31,651 bases of DNA from a virus. The notes under the pieces were generated by a model that saw only the letters and a program-made list of their open reading frames with translations, searched no databases and was not told the DNA's origin. Both the position numbers and the translations under genes were made by a program. This document shows positions 5,725-20,441 of the stretch, one piece after another. The stretch's first letter is position 1, and each line of letters begins with the position of its first letter. The stretch covers positions 1 to 31,651 of IMG/VR virus record IMGVR_UViG_3300047557_003679. The stretch is one strand, 5' to 3'.

Positions 5725-5907
5725 TCAATCAGGTAACGCCTGAAACCACCACACTGTTCCGCCCTGCTCCTCTACCCATTTACGCGTGACGTAAGCCTCG
5801 TCCTTGGTTAACGTCACGCATTTCTTTTCTTCGCCAATTTCCCAGCACATATTCACGCGTATCTGGGGATCTCTTTTCTTTTTCACTTGCTTACAAGAAT
5901 TGCCCAA
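5725..5907 (-). CDS. Small hypothetical protein, 60 residues
   Basis: The 60-residue product is MGNSCKQVKKKRDPQIRVNM followed by CWEIGEEKKC, then an acidic helix and GGTVWWFQALPD. Two cysteines nine residues apart and a C-terminal WW pair are the visible features. The start at 5907 overlaps the end of the lysin gene by 25 bases; an internal Met at residue 20 is possible but would drop the RDPQIRVN segment, which looks conserved. It is the last gene of the minus-strand lysis and surface block. Function unknown. Confidence 0.6.
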   Translation of the reverse strand: MGNSCKQVKKKRDPQIRVNMCWEIGEEKKCVTLTKDEAYVTRKWVEEQGGTVWWFQALPD

Positions 5908-6995
5908 CCAGTGTTTGGCCCGTCACATTCCCAACGACGTAACCAATTTTTCTTGCTGTATTTAACTCCCTTTCCTTCGCTTGCTTTGTTACTGATATAG
6001 CCGCCATCAACCATATCTGCTTCGCCGTTGGGATCATTAAATACAAAAGAATCTTTTGTAAATCCAACGCAACAAGTCCAATGGCCGCCACCTGTAGGTC
6101 TGGTTATCGGTCCTTGATGTAACCATCCAACAGCAACCGGCCTGTTGTTACGAATTTCATTTTCTAGCAACGCAGCATTACCATTGGTAATAAACCTGGC
6201 ATTAAGTCCCAGGGATCTTAAAGCTGCGAGATGAGAATCTTTGTTGATTGTATCTCCATATTTTGCCCTGATTTTATTGTACTCATCGTCAGACTTAACC
6301 TTGCCGTAATATTCAGCAATCATGGCGCAAGTACTAGAAAAACATTCTCTGTACCCAGTGCCAGTCGTATTATCAAGCTGGTATTCGTAAGGAACATTTA
6401 ATATTTTTTCACTGATAACAACGCTTTGATTCTCGCCGGGTGTTTCTAGCTTTCGATCCATAATCTGAATTAGTTTCGTTGCATAACCTGGATCTGTTGC
6501 ATATCCTTCTTGGACCAATAAACGCGCACATTCATTTCTACTGGTTGCCCTGTTTACACCTTTGTAATTTTTAAAGTCTTTGTACCAACGATCTACTAAA
6601 TAACAAACACAGGTATATAAATCAGGGAAATCTAAAAACCCAGCCTTAATCGTGATCCATTGTCCATTAATAAACTCTTGCGTATTAACCTGAGTCCCGC
6701 TTCCTTTTAACCCAAAGAAATTATTCTTGCCAGATACATGCTCTCCCCAGCCAGATTCAAGTGCCCACTGAGCAGCTACAACTTCACTAAATTTTGCTCC
6801 AGCTTGTTTTGCAGCTGCAATAACGCCGTCCCAATTGTTCTCGTATTTAATAACCGGCTTTACTTCATTCCTATAGCGACGAGCAAATCCATCTCGCTGT
6901 TCTGGCGTCAAAGTGCCATCCAACCATTCCCAAGCAGTTACTTGGTGCTGTAATCGCTTGTCATATATTACTGCATTATTTAGATTGATTGACAT
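5883..6995 (-). CDS. Two-domain lysin: glucosaminidase plus C39-like peptidase
   Basis: The product (370 residues from the ATG at 6995) joins two peptidoglycan-active domains. Residues about 50-185 resemble FlgJ/glucosaminidase domains: VVAAQWALESGWGEH with the likely catalytic Glu80, then NNFFGLKG. Residues about 198-365 resemble peptidase C39-like (C39_2) domains: VPYEYQLDN, GYRECFSSTCAMIAEYYG with likely nucleophile Cys218, GGGHW with His305, and NDPNGE with Asp321. It would cut both glycan strands and peptide links. An in-frame ATG at 7040 exists, but it lies deep in the upstream gene. The start at 6995 overlaps that gene by only 20 bases and matches the usual N-terminus. No signal peptide is visible, so release would need a holin that I cannot identify. 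A virion-borne role is also possible, since it is encoded with the fibres. Confidence 0.85.
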   Translation of the reverse strand: MSINLNNAVIYDKRLQHQVTAWEWLDGTLTPEQRDGFARRYRNEVKPVIKYENNWDGVIAAAKQAGAKFSEVVAAQWALESGWGEHVSGKNNFFGLKGSGTQVNTQEFINGQWITIKAGFLDFPDLYTCVCYLVDRWYKDFKNYKGVNRATSRNECARLLVQEGYATDPGYATKLIQIMDRKLETPGENQSVVISEKILNVPYEYQLDNTTGTGYRECFSSTCAMIAEYYGKVKSDDEYNKIRAKYGDTINKDSHLAALRSLGLNARFITNGNAALLENEIRNNRPVAVGWLHQGPITRPTGGGHWTCCVGFTKDSFVFNDPNGEADMVDGGYISNKASEGKGVKYSKKNWLRRWECDGPNTGWAILVSK

Positions 6996-7677
6996 CTTCA
7001 AGTATTTTCCTGAAGTTTCCTTTATATACTTTAGGTCCAATATGCATGCATGTAGTTGTAGTATTTACCCAAATCTCAAAGCCCAATGCCTTTAGTTTTT
7101 CACATAAATAAATATCTTCTCCCATAAAAGCTTCACCAACAAAGTCATATTGACAAATATTTTTCAATTGTTTACCACGGAAAAATGTTTGGGTGCTGTT
7201 GTCGCTCAATGCTTTAAGTGCTTTTTGGCTTAGGTATAAACAACTTGTACTAACACGATCTGCTTTTACCCATTCAGCGGCTAAGGGCATCTCATTAAAG
7301 TAAATATCGTATTGTTCTTGATCAGCCTTTTTTACCGTTGGAATACATGCAACATCTTTATTGCTTTTGATAACAGAAATTAAGTTGTCAGCATCAACGT
7401 AAACGTCAGAATCAATAAAAAATAAACCATCAAAATTACCTTGAATAGCCGTCGTCAAAATTTCATTTCTTGCCATCGGAAGAATGCTTTCATACGACAG
7501 CAAAGAAATAGAAAAATCAATGTTGGCGGCAATGCCTTTCTTGGTTGCTTCATGTAAAGCAAAACAAAACCAGGCGTCCACTCGCCCATCAAGAGCAGGC
7601 GTGCCAATCAGTACACGCTTTGGTTGTTTTGTAATCTTGTTAGAAGACTTTGCCACTGGGTAAATCTTTTTTGCCAT
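6976..7677 (-). CDS. GT-A fold glycosyltransferase (family 2-like)
   Basis: The 233-residue product has the single-domain plan of GT-A transferases. It has RVLIGTPALDGRVD (21-34), LPMARNEI (66-73), the metal-binding FIDSDVYVDAD (88-97, with the D-x-D pair Asp89 and Asp91) and a C-terminal GEAFMGEDIYLCEKLKALGF (181-200) that matches the acceptor-side GED motif. Metal-dependent transfer of a sugar from a nucleotide donor is the family role, with specificity unknown. The gene overlaps the upstream glycosyltransferase by 70 bases and the downstream lysin by 20, so it lies inside one minus-strand operon. MHIGPKVYKGN near the C-terminus fits the last metal-binding histidine of the fold. Confidence 0.82.
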   Translation of the reverse strand: MAKKIYPVAKSSNKITKQPKRVLIGTPALDGRVDAWFCFALHEATKKGIAANIDFSISLLSYESILPMARNEILTTAIQGNFDGLFFIDSDVYVDADNLISVIKSNKDVACIPTVKKADQEQYDIYFNEMPLAAEWVKADRVSTSCLYLSQKALKALSDNSTQTFFRGKQLKNICQYDFVGEAFMGEDIYLCEKLKALGFEIWVNTTTTCMHIGPKVYKGNFRKILEDVNQSK

Positions 7678-9504: not shown

Positions 9505-12500
9505 TTATGATTTTCCCTGGACAAAAATTTCTAACTGTTCAATTCTATCAGAAAGCTCTTGAACAGCTTTTACAAGAATTGGATATGTTTTCATAGGATC
9601 AGCCTCCCACATGTCTGGATTGTCTTTATGCACTAAACGGGTATATTCAGTTGTTTTAAATTTAGTTTCAACTTCGTCTAATTCTTGGGCAATAAAACCA
9701 AAATCTTTTTTGCCCTTGCGTGAACCATCCCGAGCAGCCCAATCAAATTGTACAGGGCGAAGCTCTTTAATAAACTGAACGCCAAATGCCAAGTCTTTGA
9801 TATTTGTTTTATCGCGGCGATCTGATAATGTTGAAATTGTTGTGTCTGCGCAGCGAAGATTGACTACATCTGCGTTGCCAAGTGTAAATTCACCTGTTAC
9901 AGTAGTTGCGCTTGCTTGAGCATTGTTACCAATACAGGTGTTGTTTACACCTGTTGTAATGGTTTCACCAGCAAGATGACCCAGTGCCGTGTTTCCTGTT
10001 CCAATTGACACGCTATCTAAAGCGCTTGTTCCAATAGCAACGTTATTAATACCAGAAGTCGCAACAACCAATGCGTCCCGACCAACAGCAACGTTATTAT
10101 TTCCTGTTGTTATTCCAGCAGCAGCAAAATATCCAACAGCAACGTTCCCACTACCAATACTATTAGTGCCTAGCGCACCATGACCAATAGCAGTATTCCT
10201 GTCTCCGGTTGTATTTGCGTCTAAACTGCTGCCGCCAACAGCAACATTTTCTTTTCCTATTGTGTTTAGCAATAAAGCATTTCTGCCAATTGCAACGTTA
10301 CTAATTCCAGTTGTATTGTTTTGAGCAGCACTTCTTCCAATTGCAACATTATCGACTCCTATTGTATTTCCATTTAATGCAGCACGACCTATGGCTACAT
10401 TACTAAACCCTGTTGTATTCGAATATAAAGCAAGTGTGCCAATAGCAGTATTAAAACTGCCCTCTGTATTAGTTAGTAATGATTGATGACCAATTGAAAC
10501 ATTAGATTCGCCTGTTGTATTTGCAGCTAATGCGCTGCGACCAATGGCAACGCTAGCACTTCCAACGTTAGCGCTTAAAGCAGAAGCACCAATTGCAATA
10601 TTGTCATTTCCGGTTGTATTTAAATCAAGCGCTAAATAACCAACTGCAACATTAGTAGCGCCTGTTGTATTTGCAGTCAGTGCATTGCGGCCAACAGCAA
10701 CATTTTGAGAGCCAATCGTCGTGTTTTGTAATGCACTAACACCAATTGCAACGTTTTCAGCGCCACTTATATTCGCTCCCATTGCACTTACGCCAACAGC
10801 AACGTTATTTGATCCCGTTGTATTTGCAAGCAACGCAACGCGACCAACGGCAACGTTAGTTGATCCCGTTGTGTTTGCAGCTAATGCATTATTACCAACT
10901 GCAGTATTACCTATTCCTGTTGTATTTGCAAGCATTGTATTGGCGCCAACTGCAGTATTATTTACGCCTGTTGTATTTGCAAATAATGCATTAGTGCCAA
11001 GAGCAGTATTATTTCCACCTATTGTGTTTGCAGGTAATGCGCTAGTGCCAACTGCAGTATTACTGTTTCCAGTTGTATTTACAGATAATGCACTATTACC
11101 AACAGCAGTATTATTTCCACCTATTGTATTTGCGGTTAAAGCACTACTGCCAATCCCAACATTGTTGACCCCACTTGTATTTGCATCTACTGCATATATA
11201 CCAATACCAATATTATTGTTTCCTATTGTATTTACTAATAAGGCATTTGAGCCAATTGCAACGTTATTTACGCCTGTTGTATTTGAACCTAAAGCAGCAG
11301 TGCCAATTGCAATATTATCGGTTCCAATTGTATTTGCGTCTAATACATTTAAACCAATACCAATGTTATTGCTTCCTGTTGTATTTAACAATAATGCACT
11401 TGGGCCAATTGCCACATTATTTACACCTGTTGTATTCGCATTAAGCGCTAAATAACCAACTGCAACTTGGCTGCCAACTAAACTGTTTTCCAGGCAGCCT
11501 CTGCCAACTGCAACGTTGTTGTTTCCTGTTGTGTTTGTAAATAACGCATAAGTGCCTAGTGAAACATTGTCATTGCCAACTGTTGTACTAGTACCTGCTA
11601 AATGACCAATCGCAACATTGTTAGCACCAGTAGTAGTGTTTGCGAGACTACTTGCACCAACAGCAATGTTATTAACTCCTGTTGTAGACGTATTCAATGC
11701 AAAATAACCAACAGCTACATTATTATTTCCTGTTGTATTTGCGTCTAATGCATTTGTGCCAATAGCAACATTAAATCTGCCAATTGTGTTTACAGCAAAT
11801 GCACCGTCGCCAATGCCAATATTGTCAGTACCTGTGGTATTTGAAGTTAATGCATTTACGCCAATAGCAATATTATTGTTTCCTGTTGTATTTGCAAATA
11901 ATGCATTATTGCCAATTGCAATATTATCGTTTCCTACTGTATTTGTGTATAAACCTTGATAGCCAATTCCAAGATTAGAAGAGCCAAATGTTGTAGAAAA
12001 GAGTGCCTGAGTGCCAATTGCAATAGACGGTGAATTTGTAAAATTAGATGAATGTGATTTTAAAGCTTCTGATCCAATGCCAATATTATTGGTTCCCGCA
12101 GTTGCGTTTAAACTGCCAGAACCAATACCAATATTGTTAACACCTGCTGTACTGCCACTAAGAGCATTAAGACCAATAGCAATATTATTGCTTCCTGTTG
12201 TATTTGAAGCTAATGCACTACTGCCAATTGCAATGTTTACAGTACCTGTTGTATTTGCAAGTAATGCATTGTTGCCAATTCCAATATTACTTGCGCCTGT
12301 TGTATTTCCAATTAAACCAGAAACACCTATAGCTATGTTATTGGCGCCCGTTGTATTAGAACTTAAAGCATCTGCGCCAACAGCAACATTTCTGGTTCCA
12401 ATAGTATTTGAATCTAGTGCATTATTTCCAACGGCAACGTTCAGCGTTCCTGTGGTATTAAAATATAATGCATAAGCACCAATAGCAGTATTAGATGAAC

Positions 12501-13557
12501 CATTGGCAATGCCTACTCCCATGGCAGACGCACCTACTGCCGTATTGCCAGTTGAAACAATAGAAAGCAGTAAAGCTGCTGCGCCAATAGCGGTGTTATC
12601 TAGTCCAGTGGTATTAGAATTTAATGCGCGATGACCGAAAGCGGTATTAGTGCCTCCTACTGTATTTGAATAAAGTGTTTGATAACCGATTCCATTATTG
12701 CCTCTTCCAGTTGTATTTGAAAAAAGTGATTGATAACCAATTGCAAGATTAGGAACATTAAAAAGAACTCCGGATGTTTGGCTTCTTAAACTGTCGGCAC
12801 CAATTGCAATATTATGATTAGCGGCAGTTGCCGTGCTTAATGCATTTGATCCAATAGCAATATTGTTACTACCGGTCGCATTCAGAAAAGATTTATAACC
12901 AATGGCAACATTATCCGTTCCTGTTGTATTGGCTTTACCAGCTTGATAACCAATAAAAGTGTTATTAACTCCAGTGGAATTTAAACCGGCCTCAAAACCA
13001 AGGCTTGTTTCAAAAGGTGTCCCGGTTTGCGTAACACCACTTAAATTATTTATACTTGTCCAACTCGTCGTGCCATCACTATTGGTAGTTAGTGCATCTC
13101 CGGATGTACCTGTTGTTGCAGGAAAACTATACAAACCATAGGGACGGATGTTTCCGCTTCCGGTGATAACCGTTACATTGCCTGAAGCAATATAAGATTG
13201 CCCGGAAATAGTTGTTCCATTTACATTTGTAAAATTACCAGTGGCTGCATTAACAGTAATACCAGTAATAGAGGTGCCTGTTAAAGAAGTAAATGTGCCG
13301 GTAGTAAATGATGCAGTAGTACCCTGTGTTGTAGTACCTGTTAAAGACGTAAAACTGCCAGTAACACTAACAATGTTTATTCCGCTAATACTATTTCCGG
13401 TTAAAGATGTAAAATTCCCCGTGGTTCCCTGAATATTTTCACCCGTAATCGTTGCGCCAGAAATGCGCGACGTGAATGTACCGCTGATTCCAGTAATTGT
13501 ATTTAAAGAAAAATTATTACCGCTAGAAGAGTCGTAGGTGCTGTATTTAATGGCCAT
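9505..13557 (-). CDS. Giant tail fibre with YadA-like repeats and S74 chaperone domain
   Basis: This 1350-residue protein has three parts. Residues 1-115 hold TGxFTSLTG-type repeats shared with the next fibre. Residues about 121-168 are a linker also shared with it (RPYGLYSFPATTGTSG, DGTTSW). Residues about 185-1215 are some sixty tandem 17-residue repeats of the form NTTGxNNxAIGxxALxx, like the left-handed beta-roll heads of trimeric YadA-type adhesins. The end (from about 1243) is an intramolecular chaperone of the endosialidase type (peptidase S74). It has LSDRRDKTNI, with the likely self-cleavage serine near 1245, then PVQFDWAARDGS, GFIAQELDEV and a final coiled coil. After trimer folding the chaperone is released in this family. 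The start ATG overlaps the stop of the upstream fibre gene (TGATG). It is a likely receptor-contact fibre. Confidence 0.9.
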   Translation of the reverse strand: MAIKYSTYDSSSGNNFSLNTITGISGTFTSRISGATITGENIQGTTGNFTSLTGNSISGINIVSVTGSFTSLTGTTTQGTTASFTTGTFTSLTGTSITGITVNAATGNFTNVNGTTISGQSYIASGNVTVITGSGNIRPYGLYSFPATTGTSGDALTTNSDGTTSWTSINNLSGVTQTGTPFETSLGFEAGLNSTGVNNTFIGYQAGKANTTGTDNVAIGYKSFLNATGSNNIAIGSNALSTATAANHNIAIGADSLRSQTSGVLFNVPNLAIGYQSLFSNTTGRGNNGIGYQTLYSNTVGGTNTAFGHRALNSNTTGLDNTAIGAAALLLSIVSTGNTAVGASAMGVGIANGSSNTAIGAYALYFNTTGTLNVAVGNNALDSNTIGTRNVAVGADALSSNTTGANNIAIGVSGLIGNTTGASNIGIGNNALLANTTGTVNIAIGSSALASNTTGSNNIAIGLNALSGSTAGVNNIGIGSGSLNATAGTNNIGIGSEALKSHSSNFTNSPSIAIGTQALFSTTFGSSNLGIGYQGLYTNTVGNDNIAIGNNALFANTTGNNNIAIGVNALTSNTTGTDNIGIGDGAFAVNTIGRFNVAIGTNALDANTTGNNNVAVGYFALNTSTTGVNNIAVGASSLANTTTGANNVAIGHLAGTSTTVGNDNVSLGTYALFTNTTGNNNVAVGRGCLENSLVGSQVAVGYLALNANTTGVNNVAIGPSALLLNTTGSNNIGIGLNVLDANTIGTDNIAIGTAALGSNTTGVNNVAIGSNALLVNTIGNNNIGIGIYAVDANTSGVNNVGIGSSALTANTIGGNNTAVGNSALSVNTTGNSNTAVGTSALPANTIGGNNTALGTNALFANTTGVNNTAVGANTMLANTTGIGNTAVGNNALAANTTGSTNVAVGRVALLANTTGSNNVAVGVSAMGANISGAENVAIGVSALQNTTIGSQNVAVGRNALTANTTGATNVAVGYLALDLNTTGNDNIAIGASALSANVGSASVAIGRSALAANTTGESNVSIGHQSLLTNTEGSFNTAIGTLALYSNTTGFSNVAIGRAALNGNTIGVDNVAIGRSAAQNNTTGISNVAIGRNALLLNTIGKENVAVGGSSLDANTTGDRNTAIGHGALGTNSIGSGNVAVGYFAAAGITTGNNNVAVGRDALVVATSGINNVAIGTSALDSVSIGTGNTALGHLAGETITTGVNNTCIGNNAQASATTVTGEFTLGNADVVNLRCADTTISTLSDRRDKTNIKDLAFGVQFIKELRPVQFDWAARDGSRKGKKDFGFIAQELDEVETKFKTTEYTRLVHKDNPDMWEADPMKTYPILVKAVQELSDRIEQLEIFVQGKS
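9912..13005 (-). repeat. Tandem 51-bp coding repeats (17-residue beta-roll units)
   Basis: About sixty degenerate 51-bp units encode NTTG/NTIG-x-NNxAIG-xxALxx. Spacing is nearly strict at 17 residues, with a few irregular units near the start (for example around the FNVPNLAIG and NFTNSPSIAIG segments). The opposite strand shows long open frames across this block, which are a by-product of the repeat and not genes. Confidence 0.88.
13054..13197 (-). repeat. Paralogous fibre linker module, copy in 1350-residue fibre
   Basis: This segment encodes SGNVTVITGSGNIRPYGLYS and continues through FPATTGTSG to DGTTSW. It is a diverged copy of the module at 13838-13980 in the adjacent fibre gene, pointing to duplication or recombination between the two fibres. 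Confidence 0.8.
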
Positions 13558-16142
13558 CAGTCAATTACCCAACCTTGAGACGGATTTACGTAGATCAACC
13601 TAAAACGAGCGTTTAAATCGTCTACTTGTAAGTCATCAGCTATACCCATTATATTACTTCCGTTTCTCAAAATAAGACCTGTTGTTATATTGCTTCTGTT
13701 TACAATTCCGACATAAATTCCAGTAGCTGGCGACAAAGGAAGAGTGACAGAAGCCCCACTAATTAAAACATGATAAGCATTTGATGTAGCTGTTACATCG
13801 CCTGAAATAATAACGGTTGTTTCATTTTTAGTGACTAATGTCCAGCTAGTTGTTCCATCTCCATTTGTGGAAAGAAAATAACCAGATGTTCCGGTTGTAT
13901 TAGGAAAACTGTAAAGACCATATGGCCTTACGTCTCCACTGCCAGAAATAACAAGAACGTTTCCACTTGCGTAGTAATTACCACCCGAAATAACACCAGT
14001 AGTAAAAACACCGCTACCAAAAATACCGCTGCCGCTAACAAGGTTGTTTCCGGTTGTGGTTTCCGTGAAGTTTGCAACTGTAAAGTTACCGGTTGTTGCC
14101 GTAACAGTTACTGCTTCAATTAACAATCCTGTGATATAAGTACCAGAAACTTGAGAAGTAAATGTTCCACTTACACCTGTAATATTTCCAAAACGTCCAA
14201 TATTGCCTGTTACTATTGCACCAGAAACAAATGGACTTTCAATTCGGGTACTACCGGTAATGTAATTGATGGTCGCATTTTCGCCAACAATATTAAAACC
14301 AGAAAGCTGAGAGGTGAACGCCCCTGTAACACCAGTAACTCTTGTACCAAGGATTGTGTTTCCAGTTAGGGTTGCGCCTGATACTGTATTTGTAAATGTG
14401 CCTGCAACTCCCGTAATATTTGTAAAGTTAGCAGCGCTTCCGGTAACGTTTGTACCTGATAAAGTCCCAGTAAAAACACCAGTGCTTCCGGTTAACGTTG
14501 TAAACCGACCGGCGTCACCTGTGATAACAGCACCTGATACGCGATCTGTAAATGTCCCAGAGACTGCATTTACATTTGTAAAGTTTCCCGTTGCCCCTGT
14601 AAATGTTGCACCTGAAAGCAGATCAGTAAATACTCCAGTTGCTCCAGTAACACTGGTAAACCGGCCAACATTTCCAGTGACAGTTGTTCCAGATAAATTA
14701 GTAAATACTCCGGAAACAAATGTACCCGTTGTGCCGCTAATGCTGTTTCCAGTAATTGTTGCTCCCCTGATAAAAGTGAATACACCAGTGGTGACATTAA
14801 CGCGTCCAAGGTTTCCTGTAGCCCCTGTAATTGTTGCGCCAGAAATTAAACTCAGGCCAAAAATTTGGCTGCCTGTTAAATCACCAAATACGCCACTAAT
14901 ACCAGTTACTGTTGCGCCAGAGATGGTTCCACTGACGGTCAGTGATTGAGATATAGTGCCGCTTCCACTGATCGATAAATTACCCGAAGCAACAATGTTG
15001 CCTGTTGTATCAATCGATGGAATAGAAATAGTATTTGTGAAAACACCAGTCTGGGCTTCAATTCGTTGGAATAAACCAGTAATACCCGTTACGGTTAAAC
15101 CAGAAACACGAGACGTGAATACGCCAGTGGTGCCGGTAATATTTGTAAATCGTCCAGTGTCTCCAGTGACAACAGCTCCAGAGACAGAAACCGTGAATAC
15201 ACCTGTTGTTCCTGTGACCGATGTAAATTGACCGACGTTACCGGTAACAACAGCGCCAGAAACTTGTGTTGTAAAAGTCCCGTTTACTCCAGTTAAGTTA
15301 TTAAATAATCCCGTTGCACCTGTAATTGTTGTACCCGAAAGCTGAGTAAACGACCCGCTGACGCCAGTAAGACTTGCAAATAAACCGGTAGCACCGGTGA
15401 TTGTTGCACCAGATAAACGAGTTGTAAAAACTCCACTTACACCGGTAATATTTGCAAACTGACCGGCATCACCGGTAATCGTTGCACCAGAAAGCCGAGT
15501 AGTAAATACGCCGCTTACGCCAGTTACATTGGCAAATCGACCTGCGTCACCAGTAACAACCGCCCCGGAAACCTGTGTTGTAAACGTGCCATTTACACCG
15601 GTAATATTGGTTCCGCTAAGACTTGAAAAGAATCCTGTAGCGCCAGTAATTGTCTGTCCGGTAAGGCTGCCAAAGCTTCCCGTCGCACCTGTAATTGTTG
15701 TCGTATTAATACGAACAAAAGTACCGGTGCCAATTGTTTCATTGGCTACAATTAAGTTATTAAAATTTCCAGTGGCAGAGTTAACGTTTACAGCCTGGAA
15801 CGTCTGCCCCGTAAACGTGGTACCACTAACAAGAGCATTAAACGTTGCTCCGCTGTTTACAACTAAATAAGCAAGAGTACCCGTTCCAAGAACGTTAATG
15901 ACTTGGGGTGTAAAATTGCCGCTAACAGCAAGATTGCCTCCAACACTAAGATCACCCCCAAGTGATCCCCCTGTTAATTGAAGGTAATAATTATTTAAAT
16001 ACTGCTTTGTCTGGTTAAAAGTTAGCTTCTTATTTTTTAAACCTGGATCAACTTCTGCTATATCAACAACCATTAAAAGATCGTCGTCATTGATATTTGA
16101 CGACGAAATAGCAGGTAACTCGGTGATCCGCCTATTAGCCAC
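13557..16142 (-). CDS. Tail fibre protein with 26-residue TG-rich repeats
   Basis: The 861-residue product opens with RRITELPAISSSNINDDDLL, the kind of N-terminus many phage fibres use to attach to the tail. Residues about 90-690 are Gly/Thr/Ser-rich repeats of roughly 26 residues (for example DAGRFANVTGVSGVFTTRLS) that vary around FTxxVSGAxxTG. The linker module RPYGLYSFPNTTGTSG follows near 720-765. The C-terminal 90 residues are a compact beta domain (HVLISGASVTLPLSPATG, GIADDLQVDDLNARFRLIYV, GWVID) like those that close other cyanophage fibres. No S74 chaperone is present, unlike in the downstream fibre. Its stop overlaps the start of that fibre gene, so the two are co-expressed and probably co-assembled. 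Confidence 0.85.
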   Translation of the reverse strand: MANRRITELPAISSSNINDDDLLMVVDIAEVDPGLKNKKLTFNQTKQYLNNYYLQLTGGSLGGDLSVGGNLAVSGNFTPQVINVLGTGTLAYLVVNSGATFNALVSGTTFTGQTFQAVNVNSATGNFNNLIVANETIGTGTFVRINTTTITGATGSFGSLTGQTITGATGFFSSLSGTNITGVNGTFTTQVSGAVVTGDAGRFANVTGVSGVFTTRLSGATITGDAGQFANITGVSGVFTTRLSGATITGATGLFASLTGVSGSFTQLSGTTITGATGLFNNLTGVNGTFTTQVSGAVVTGNVGQFTSVTGTTGVFTVSVSGAVVTGDTGRFTNITGTTGVFTSRVSGLTVTGITGLFQRIEAQTGVFTNTISIPSIDTTGNIVASGNLSISGSGTISQSLTVSGTISGATVTGISGVFGDLTGSQIFGLSLISGATITGATGNLGRVNVTTGVFTFIRGATITGNSISGTTGTFVSGVFTNLSGTTVTGNVGRFTSVTGATGVFTDLLSGATFTGATGNFTNVNAVSGTFTDRVSGAVITGDAGRFTTLTGSTGVFTGTLSGTNVTGSAANFTNITGVAGTFTNTVSGATLTGNTILGTRVTGVTGAFTSQLSGFNIVGENATINYITGSTRIESPFVSGAIVTGNIGRFGNITGVSGTFTSQVSGTYITGLLIEAVTVTATTGNFTVANFTETTTGNNLVSGSGIFGSGVFTTGVISGGNYYASGNVLVISGSGDVRPYGLYSFPNTTGTSGYFLSTNGDGTTSWTLVTKNETTVIISGDVTATSNAYHVLISGASVTLPLSPATGIYVGIVNRSNITTGLILRNGSNIMGIADDLQVDDLNARFRLIYVNPSQGWVID
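13838..13980 (-). repeat. Paralogous fibre linker module, copy in 861-residue fibre
   Basis: This segment encodes SGNVLVISGSGDVRPYGLYS and continues to DGTTSW. It matches the module at 13054-13197 residue for residue at most positions. Confidence 0.8.
14072..15872 (-). repeat. Degenerate tandem repeats of about 78 bp in the 861-residue fibre
   Basis: Around twenty-plus units encode variations of GDAGRFANVTGVSGVFTTRL followed by SGATIT. The two clearest neighbours (near residues 200-255) are nearly identical, showing recent unit duplication. Other units are shortened or shuffled. Confidence 0.75.
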
Positions 16143-19844: not shown

Positions 19845-20128
19845 ACATCCAAGATTGTCCTGGTGGCGTTTGCCCTGTACCATGGGCAACGATTCCTGAA
19901 CGCCCTGTGCTCCAAGAAGATACGGTGAATCATCCATCGCACTACGTTGATGGAGCAATTGAATGTATTGAAGCAATTGAAGCTGCTTTAACCGACGAAG
20001 AATTCCGTGGTTATTGCAAAGGCAACTGTATTAAATATATTTGGCGTGAGCGCCATAAAGGCGGTACAGAATCCCTGAAGAAAGCTCGGTGGTATCTGGA
20101 TCGCCTTATTGCGTTAGACGAAAACTAG
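19544..20128 (+). CDS. DUF3310-domain protein with uncertain start
   Basis: The C-terminal part (from about 19916) encodes NHPSHYVDGAIECIEAIEAA, then FRGYCKGNCIKYIWRERHKG and ESLKKARWYLDRLI, the complete DUF3310 domain. This small helical domain of unknown function is common in phages near nucleotide and replication genes. The segment before it (PWFDPVDIQDCPGGVCPVPW, from about 19826) also looks coding. Between 19544 (GTG) and about 19815 the frame is Arg/Ser-rich and reads as the shadow of the 19494 gene. In this frame there is no ATG, GTG or TTG between the ATG at 19640 and the domain. The limits given are the open frame. Expression may need a -1 frameshift from 19494-19844, a rare start, or the sequence may carry an indel. 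Its stop overlaps the convergent NblA-like gene. Confidence 0.7.
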   Translation: MSLSVFRRFWRSIRQRRERCSAVRYVQSRIGCMRTRSGTAEFTAGGDGASREDGLYSERGRGGDVPRDASNAEAEAGGSAPSGRHSSGNGVETTPWFDPVDIQDCPGGVCPVPWATIPERPVLQEDTVNHPSHYVDGAIECIEAIEAALTDEEFRGYCKGNCIKYIWRERHKGGTESLKKARWYLDRLIALDEN

Positions 20129-20412
20129 AACGGTTGTAGTTCGTCATCATCTTCGTCGTCGTCTGCCATGCAGGCGGCGGCGAGTTCTGCTAGTTCAAGA
20201 TCAGTTGGAACATCAAAATCCAATTGAATATTTTCGTCTGCCAGAATTTCCTTAACTGCTTGCCATTCCATCATCCGCTGGTAGTAGAGATTCAGTAATG
20301 CGGCATGCAGCTCTTCCCAAGTCATTTCTTGGGCTTGGAGTTCTGCTTTACGCATAGAGAACTGAAGCTCCAGGGGAAGCTCAAATTCTTTGGGCGTAAC
20401 AGACCTCTCCAT
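20125..20412 (-). CDS. nblA: NblA-like phycobilisome degradation protein
   Basis: From the ATG at 20412 the product is 95 residues (a TTG four codons upstream is also open). Residues 12-58 (LPLELQFSMRKAELQAQEMT, then LLNLYYQRMMEWQAVKEIL) align without gaps to what I remember of cyanobacterial NblA (LSLEQQFSIR, Q-Q-M, L-LYEQM, ELL), about one third identical. NblA is a small helical adaptor that brings phycobiliproteins to the Clp protease. Usual length is about 60 residues; here an extra C-terminus of about 35 residues ends in an acidic run (MADDDEDDDELQPF). NblA genes are known from some cyanophages, such as Microcystis phage Ma-LMM01. It lies just downstream of the lysozyme gene on the same strand, 29 bases away, so expression with lysis genes is possible. 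The assignment rests on my reading, not a search. Confidence 0.7.
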   Translation of the reverse strand: MERSVTPKEFELPLELQFSMRKAELQAQEMTWEELHAALLNLYYQRMMEWQAVKEILADENIQLDFDVPTDLELAELAAACMADDDEDDDELQPF

Positions 20413-20441
20413 CACAGTGACCAATCTTTGGTGATTTTATT

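Follow-up and report, generated by a model that had tools for sequence, protein, structure and literature searches.

A divergent NblA-like protein with a conserved acidic tail in cyanophages of the S-EIV1 lineage

The stretch of viral DNA analyzed here (IMG/VR record IMGVR_UViG_3300047557_003679, positions 1 to 31,651; hereafter, the window) encodes, on the minus strand at 20125..20412, a protein of 95 amino acids (plus the stop codon) that we interpret as a divergent NblA carried by phages of the S-EIV1 lineage, most likely an adaptor for proteolysis of the NblA type, with a probability of roughly 0.55. The gene is supported by an open reading frame, a Pfam match and homologues. The protein encoded from the ATG at 20412 to the stop codon at 20125 is MERSVTPKEFELPLELQFSMRKAELQAQEMTWEELHAALLNLYYQRMMEWQAVKEILADENIQLDFDVPTDLELAELAAACMADDDEDDDELQPF. 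The mechanical open reading frame call offered an alternative start upstream, a TTG at 20424. However, the beginning of the protein, M-[ED]-R-S, is conserved across the family, so that the ATG at 20412, which the preliminary description of this DNA had also chosen, is the right start.

Phage-borne nblA genes are already known from Microcystis and Planktothrix phages, from marine cyanopodoviruses and from a few myoviruses. For the S-EIV1 group, a survey table of photosynthesis genes includes only hli and ptoX (PMC5332604). An S-EIV1-like prophage is present in Synechococcus elongatus UTEX 3055, and the paper describing it refers to nblA only in connection with other phages (PMC9239245). The literature consulted, from which the first description of S-EIV1 and Nadel 2019 were absent, yielded no mention of nblA in this group. 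The conserved acidic tail is absent from any described NblA and is new. A very common freshwater lineage appears to carry an nblA gene that has so far been filed as hypothetical; if this gene is functional, dismantling of the antenna by phages of freshwater picocyanobacteria would be far more widespread than recorded.

Relationship of the protein core to NblA

The Pfam scan matched residues 11–57 of the window protein to positions 1–47 of the NblA profile (PF04485; E = 5e-6) with a score of 27.3 bits, the curated cut-off being 25 bits, and NblA was likewise matched by 24 of the 24 family members scanned (E ≤ 1). The family profile in turn found the Anabaena NblA crystal sequence 1OJH (E = 3.3e-4), with residues 10–58 of the window protein aligned without gaps to residues 5–53. 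Comparison of the family profile with 13 NblA sequences by hhalign yielded a probability of 87% (E = 4.5e-6, 50 columns), and in a profile-profile rerun against these 13 NblAs the score was 31.3, compared with 19.0 for the best of 200 column shuffles. The preliminary description had proposed an ungapped alignment to the NblA core at about one third identity and a profile search against PF04485 as a check. The alignment was reproduced by both PF04485 and 1OJH, the search result lay above the cut-off, and the estimate of identity was accurate: over the 47 columns of the core, the window protein shares 34% identity with the NblA of Anabaena, 28% with that of T. vulcanus, 26% with that of Ma-LMM01 and 19% with that of PaV-LD. 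Between the NblAs of Anabaena and PaV-LD, identity over the same core is only 15%; the window protein is as close to Anabaena NblA as accepted NblAs are to one another. The likeness to cyanobacterial NblA (Anabaena, 1OJH; T. vulcanus, 2Q8V/2QDO) extends over an ungapped core of 47–49 residues with an LxxExQF start and an arrangement of a short helix, a turn and a long helix.

This arrangement was recovered by structure prediction. In the AlphaFold2 monomer model (26 sequences), helices are predicted at residues 14–29, 32–59 and 71–83, with pLDDT values of about 87–90 in the core, whereas the two termini score low. The NblA core, residues 10–58 (20239..20385, minus strand), which is delimited by PF04485, 1OJH, hhalign and the AlphaFold model, encompasses the first helix, the turn and the second helix. 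A control model of a PaV-LD-type NblA has helices at 8–22 and 26–53, that is, the same predicted layout with an offset of six residues. Both monomer models show a short helix, a tight turn and a long helix.

A small helical protein could resemble NblA by chance. The window protein is indeed short and helical, its score is only 27 bits, and neither Foldseek (PDB and BFVD) nor VIA-align retrieved an NblA entry for its model. However, the structure search likewise missed NblA for the PaV-LD-type control, so that this miss is uninformative, whereas the Pfam matches are family-wide and the profile match is ungapped and passed the shuffle control; a chance resemblance is therefore extremely improbable. 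Passing the curated cut-off, the profile-profile match and the predicted helix layout together support the relationship of the phage protein to NblA. No PHROGs family was assigned to the protein. When Anabaena or PaV-LD NblA served as the query against phages and plasmids, nothing except PaV-LD itself was found. Weak PDB matches to HRD1 were rejected because they derive largely from the acidic stretch.

Gene order and phage lineage

The NblA-like gene closes a leftward block, from 31631 to 20125, that includes presumed virion genes, an HNH nuclease gene and a lysozyme gene. The latter (PF00959; 20442..21107, minus strand) lies directly upstream and is separated from the NblA-like gene by a gap of 29 bases, in agreement with the preliminary description, which had placed the two genes together. 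On the other side, a convergent gene for a protein with a C-terminal DUF3310 domain (PF11753; 19544..20128, plus strand; a mechanical open reading frame that may begin later) runs toward the NblA-like gene, and the stop codons of the two genes overlap in the sequence CTAG at 20125–20128. No promoter signal above chance was found near the NblA-like gene, and neither an RNA family nor a tRNA was found in the 31,651 nt of the window. Late expression is probable, given that the gene stands at the end of a block with genes for virion proteins and lysis.

Several other genes of the window were recorded. A gene for S-adenosylmethionine decarboxylase (PF02675; 1225–1578, plus strand), which is annotated in S-EIV1 too, suggests phage-borne polyamine synthesis. 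At 5883–7040 (minus strand), a glucosaminidase domain is joined to a cysteine peptidase domain of the C39/C70 type in one protein. Two adjoining, very long proteins of low complexity, rich in TG/NTTG repeats, are encoded at 9505–13557 and 13557–16142 (both minus strand), and the end of the protein encoded at 9505–13557 looks like a fibre-chaperone region of the S74 type.

A first scan of IMG/VR yielded 186 relatives of the NblA-like protein, and a profile scan of the same database yielded at least 563 stretches encoding relatives. The sole isolate with the gene is Synechococcus phage S-EIV1, the host of which is a Synechococcus. Its protein AHV82245.1, annotated as "hypothetical protein", is a direct ortholog with 70% identity in the core and an acidic tail ending in PF, encoded right after lysozyme; it differs from the window protein in its length (106 compared with 95 residues) and in its longer acidic tail. 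In a survey anchored on the lysozyme gene, the NblA-like gene adjoined lysozyme in 32 of 34 loci; the other two loci end inside or at the lysozyme gene, so that the order is kept in all 32 informative loci. When the S-EIV1 SSB gene was used as the anchor instead, four of six contigs carried the NblA-like gene, and the two that lacked it are fragments, 49 and 32 kb long; an S-EIV1-like SSB gene was present on all 11 of the large contigs that had been chosen for carrying the NblA-like gene. The window gene is that of a freshwater cyanophage of the S-EIV1 lineage, and its phage origin, as given in the preliminary description, is supported. The single match among genome contigs was to a "Euryarchaeota" MAG (L083); this contig is phage-like, with the same order of lysozyme and nblA.

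One contig, IMGVR_UViG_3300042503_000838 (125,842 bases), encodes, besides an S-EIV1-like nblA, a second NblA of the classical type (L264 1435–1689, minus strand; VELTLEQQF...VFKWAH). This contig (G009) exceeds its relatives in length by about 42 kb, and its classical NblA was left out of consideration as probably belonging to a podovirus sequence joined to it.

The acidic C-terminal tail

Cyanobacterial NblA proteins are 63 aa long on average (PMC4103541), close to the value of about 60 residues given in the preliminary description. The window protein has 95 residues, although the usual length is a common trait of NblA and not a strict definition of it. The additional residues form a C-terminal extension, residues 59–95 (20128..20238, minus strand), that has a net charge of −15 over 37 residues. 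The long acidic extension noted in the preliminary description is therefore real, but it is more than an acidic run. The run itself (DDDEDDDE, residues 84–91; 20140..20163, minus strand; delimited by alignment) is preceded by a conserved helix, residues 71–83 (DLELAELAAACMA; 20164..20202, minus strand), seen in the AlphaFold model and the alignment, and followed by the C-terminal tip LQPF (20128..20139, minus strand), which resembles the C-terminal tip of SSB.

Among 77 distinct full-length members of the family, the tail residues P69, T70, E73 and L77 are invariant (77/77), and the helix follows the pattern PTD-EL-ELAAAC. PF or PY forms the very end of 69 of the 77 proteins, and in the remaining eight (D/N)PF is followed by two or three further residues. 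The net charge of the tail ranges from −11 to −19 across the family. For the 77 distinct homologues, pN/pS was 0.16 in the core and 0.24–0.38 in segments of the tail, values that indicate constraint qualitatively rather than its exact strength because synonymous sites are near saturation. The tail is conserved in sequence as well as in charge and is not a random acidic stretch. AT-rich relatives (L083, L219–L224 and L227–L229; L224 has 28% GC) keep the order of lysozyme and nblA, but in place of the terminal PF their proteins have PFAPA, PFEPV, PFESV or PFTPA.

An acidic run followed by a terminal Pro-Phe is also the pattern of the SSB C-terminal peptide, DDDIPF, which is described as binding many DNA-handling proteins (PMC5872125), and it is common to the SSBs of the lineage itself. 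The SSB of S-EIV1 ends in DMTDEPF, and all 17 SSBs checked from the S-EIV1 lineage have a terminal PF (17/17), in most cases preceded by acidic residues. This comparison does not include the AT-rich subgroup with PFxPA ends, the SSB genes of which were not found on their short contigs. The NblA-like protein, in contrast to SSB, lacks an OB fold, with the tip LQPF in most members. The tail might bind the same kind of pocket as the SSB tip. However, SSB binding pockets recognize the terminal Phe, and PF is strictly terminal in SSB, whereas eight of the 77 NblA-like proteins carry residues after it, which argues against a strict requirement for a free terminal Phe.

The tip also bears on the possibility that the protein is derived from NblA but has an unrelated role, in the timing of lysis or, via the tip, in interactions with DNA-handling proteins. 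The invariable proximity to lysozyme and the acidic-xxPF tip shared with the lineage's SSBs, together with the wide range of partners of the SSB peptide, would fit such a role. Against it stand the members with residues after PF and the retention of the NblA sequence and helix layout in the core, and no membrane helix is apparent that would befit a holin; on balance, we find an unrelated role quite unlikely. A combination of both properties, in which the NblA core and the SSB-like tip would couple Clp proteolysis to proteins that recognize SSB tails, is a long shot as well. If such coupling existed, host proteins that partner with SSB could, for example, be delivered to Clp, or breakdown of the antenna could be linked to phage DNA synthesis.

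The antenna side of the core and the putative function

NblA reportedly binds ClpC via a motif close to its N terminus and phycobiliproteins via a motif close to its C terminus (PMC4103541). In the window protein, the N-terminal motif is LELQF, compared with LEQQF in NblA, that is, L, E, Q and F are kept and the first Q is replaced by L. At the other end, Bienert et al. reportedly found in 2006 that Anabaena NblA depends on Leu51 and Lys53 for binding of phycobilisomes or phycobiliproteins, a functional trait that is not part of the Pfam definition of NblA. The position matching Leu51 is I or L in 77 of the 77 family members. In contrast, none of the 77 has a basic residue at the position matching Lys53, which is occupied by A, E, D, N, Q or S, whereas this position is basic in the NblAs of Anabaena, T. 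vulcanus, PaV-LD and Ma-LMM01 and in a podovirus-like NblA on another contig. With the Lys53 equivalent lost and the N-terminal motif partly kept, the part of the core that has changed most is the end expected to touch the antenna. The family also differs from cyanobacterial NblA in the invariant residues W32, R46 and E49 and the nearly invariant W50 (74/77), which are not NblA hallmarks, in addition to the acidic, PF-tipped tail. The loss of Lys53, the change from LEQQF to LELQF and the non-hallmark residues W32, R46, E49 and W50 all count against an NblA-type adaptor.

Nevertheless, we favor this assignment on the strength of the PF04485, 1OJH and hhalign matches, the helix spacing and the activity of other phage NblAs, as well as of the Synechococcus host of S-EIV1 and the lysozyme-linked position. 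The NblA of PaV-LD degrades phycobilisomes in Synechocystis (PMC4103541), and the phage NblAs tested so far all lower the phycobilin content (PMC9602691). Given that PaV-LD NblA is active in spite of its low identity to the Anabaena protein, sequence distance alone is no bar to phycobilin loss. Bleaching by the window protein is inferred. Under this scenario, the gene would be expressed late, alongside the genes for virion proteins and lysis; an NblA dimer would be built from the helix-turn-helix core; and the conserved LxxExQF start of helix 1 would dock the dimer on ClpC, the Clp chaperone of the host. Phycobilisome proteins would in turn be unfolded and broken down by the host Clp protease, which would free amino acids and lower light absorption during virion assembly. 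This scenario includes the late dismantling of the host antenna proposed in the preliminary description, an interpretation that the results support in part. With helix 2 no longer ending in the antenna-binding basic residue, the tail, with its short helix, acidic run and PF tip, may take over or alter the contact with the substrate, for example, by binding basic linker proteins.

Among the nearest precedents are the NblAs of PaV-LD (a Planktothrix phage; 54 aa) and Ma-LMM01 (a Microcystis phage; 79 aa), which are likewise phage-borne, have the same helix spacing and are known or expected to cause phycobilisome loss. Both score higher against PF04485 (45–52 bits compared with about 28 for the window protein), still have a basic amino acid in the Lys53 position and have no acidic tail. 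Furthermore, nblA of Ma-LMM01 is an early gene, which counts against a late NblA adaptor in the window.

The same changes would also be compatible with a Clp adaptor that has been retargeted, with the core bringing in ClpC while the altered end of helix 2 and the tail select another substrate, for example, a host regulator, a defense protein or a replication protein. The partial retention of the ClpC-side start of helix 1, the loss of the phycobilisome-side lysine in 77/77 members and a tail conserved in sequence as well as in charge point in this direction. However, all phage NblAs tested so far act on phycobilisomes (PMC9602691), and the sequence suggests no substrate, so that we regard retargeting as unlikely. 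Alternatively, the protein could be a brake on bleaching, pairing with the host NblA or with ClpC without being able to bind phycobilisomes, so that the antenna stays intact during infection. The missing antenna-binding lysine would fit this role, as would the operation of Synechocystis NblA as an NblA1/NblA2 heterodimer (Baier 2014, as cited in PMC7966870), but no known phage NblA acts in this manner and the late position fits breakdown of the antenna at least equally well; we consider such a brake very doubtful. The loss of the lysine combined with a conserved acidic tail represents a clean natural experiment on the choice of substrate by NblA.

The NblAs of marine cyanopodoviruses, S-TIM5 and S-SCSM1 are likewise divergent and were found by remote homology (Nadel 2019; PMC9602691). 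With the profiles used here, S-TIM5, Syn5, P-GSP1 and S-CBP2 gave no match, and P-SSP7 and S-RIP1 gave weak matches. The NblA candidate of P-SSP7, a Prochlorococcus phage, is a 103-residue open reading frame with a weak NblA-like match (L240 1453–1764, plus strand); it has a C-terminal extension of its own, which differs in sequence from the tail of the window protein. This open reading frame overlaps the next one and adjoins an exonuclease-like gene.
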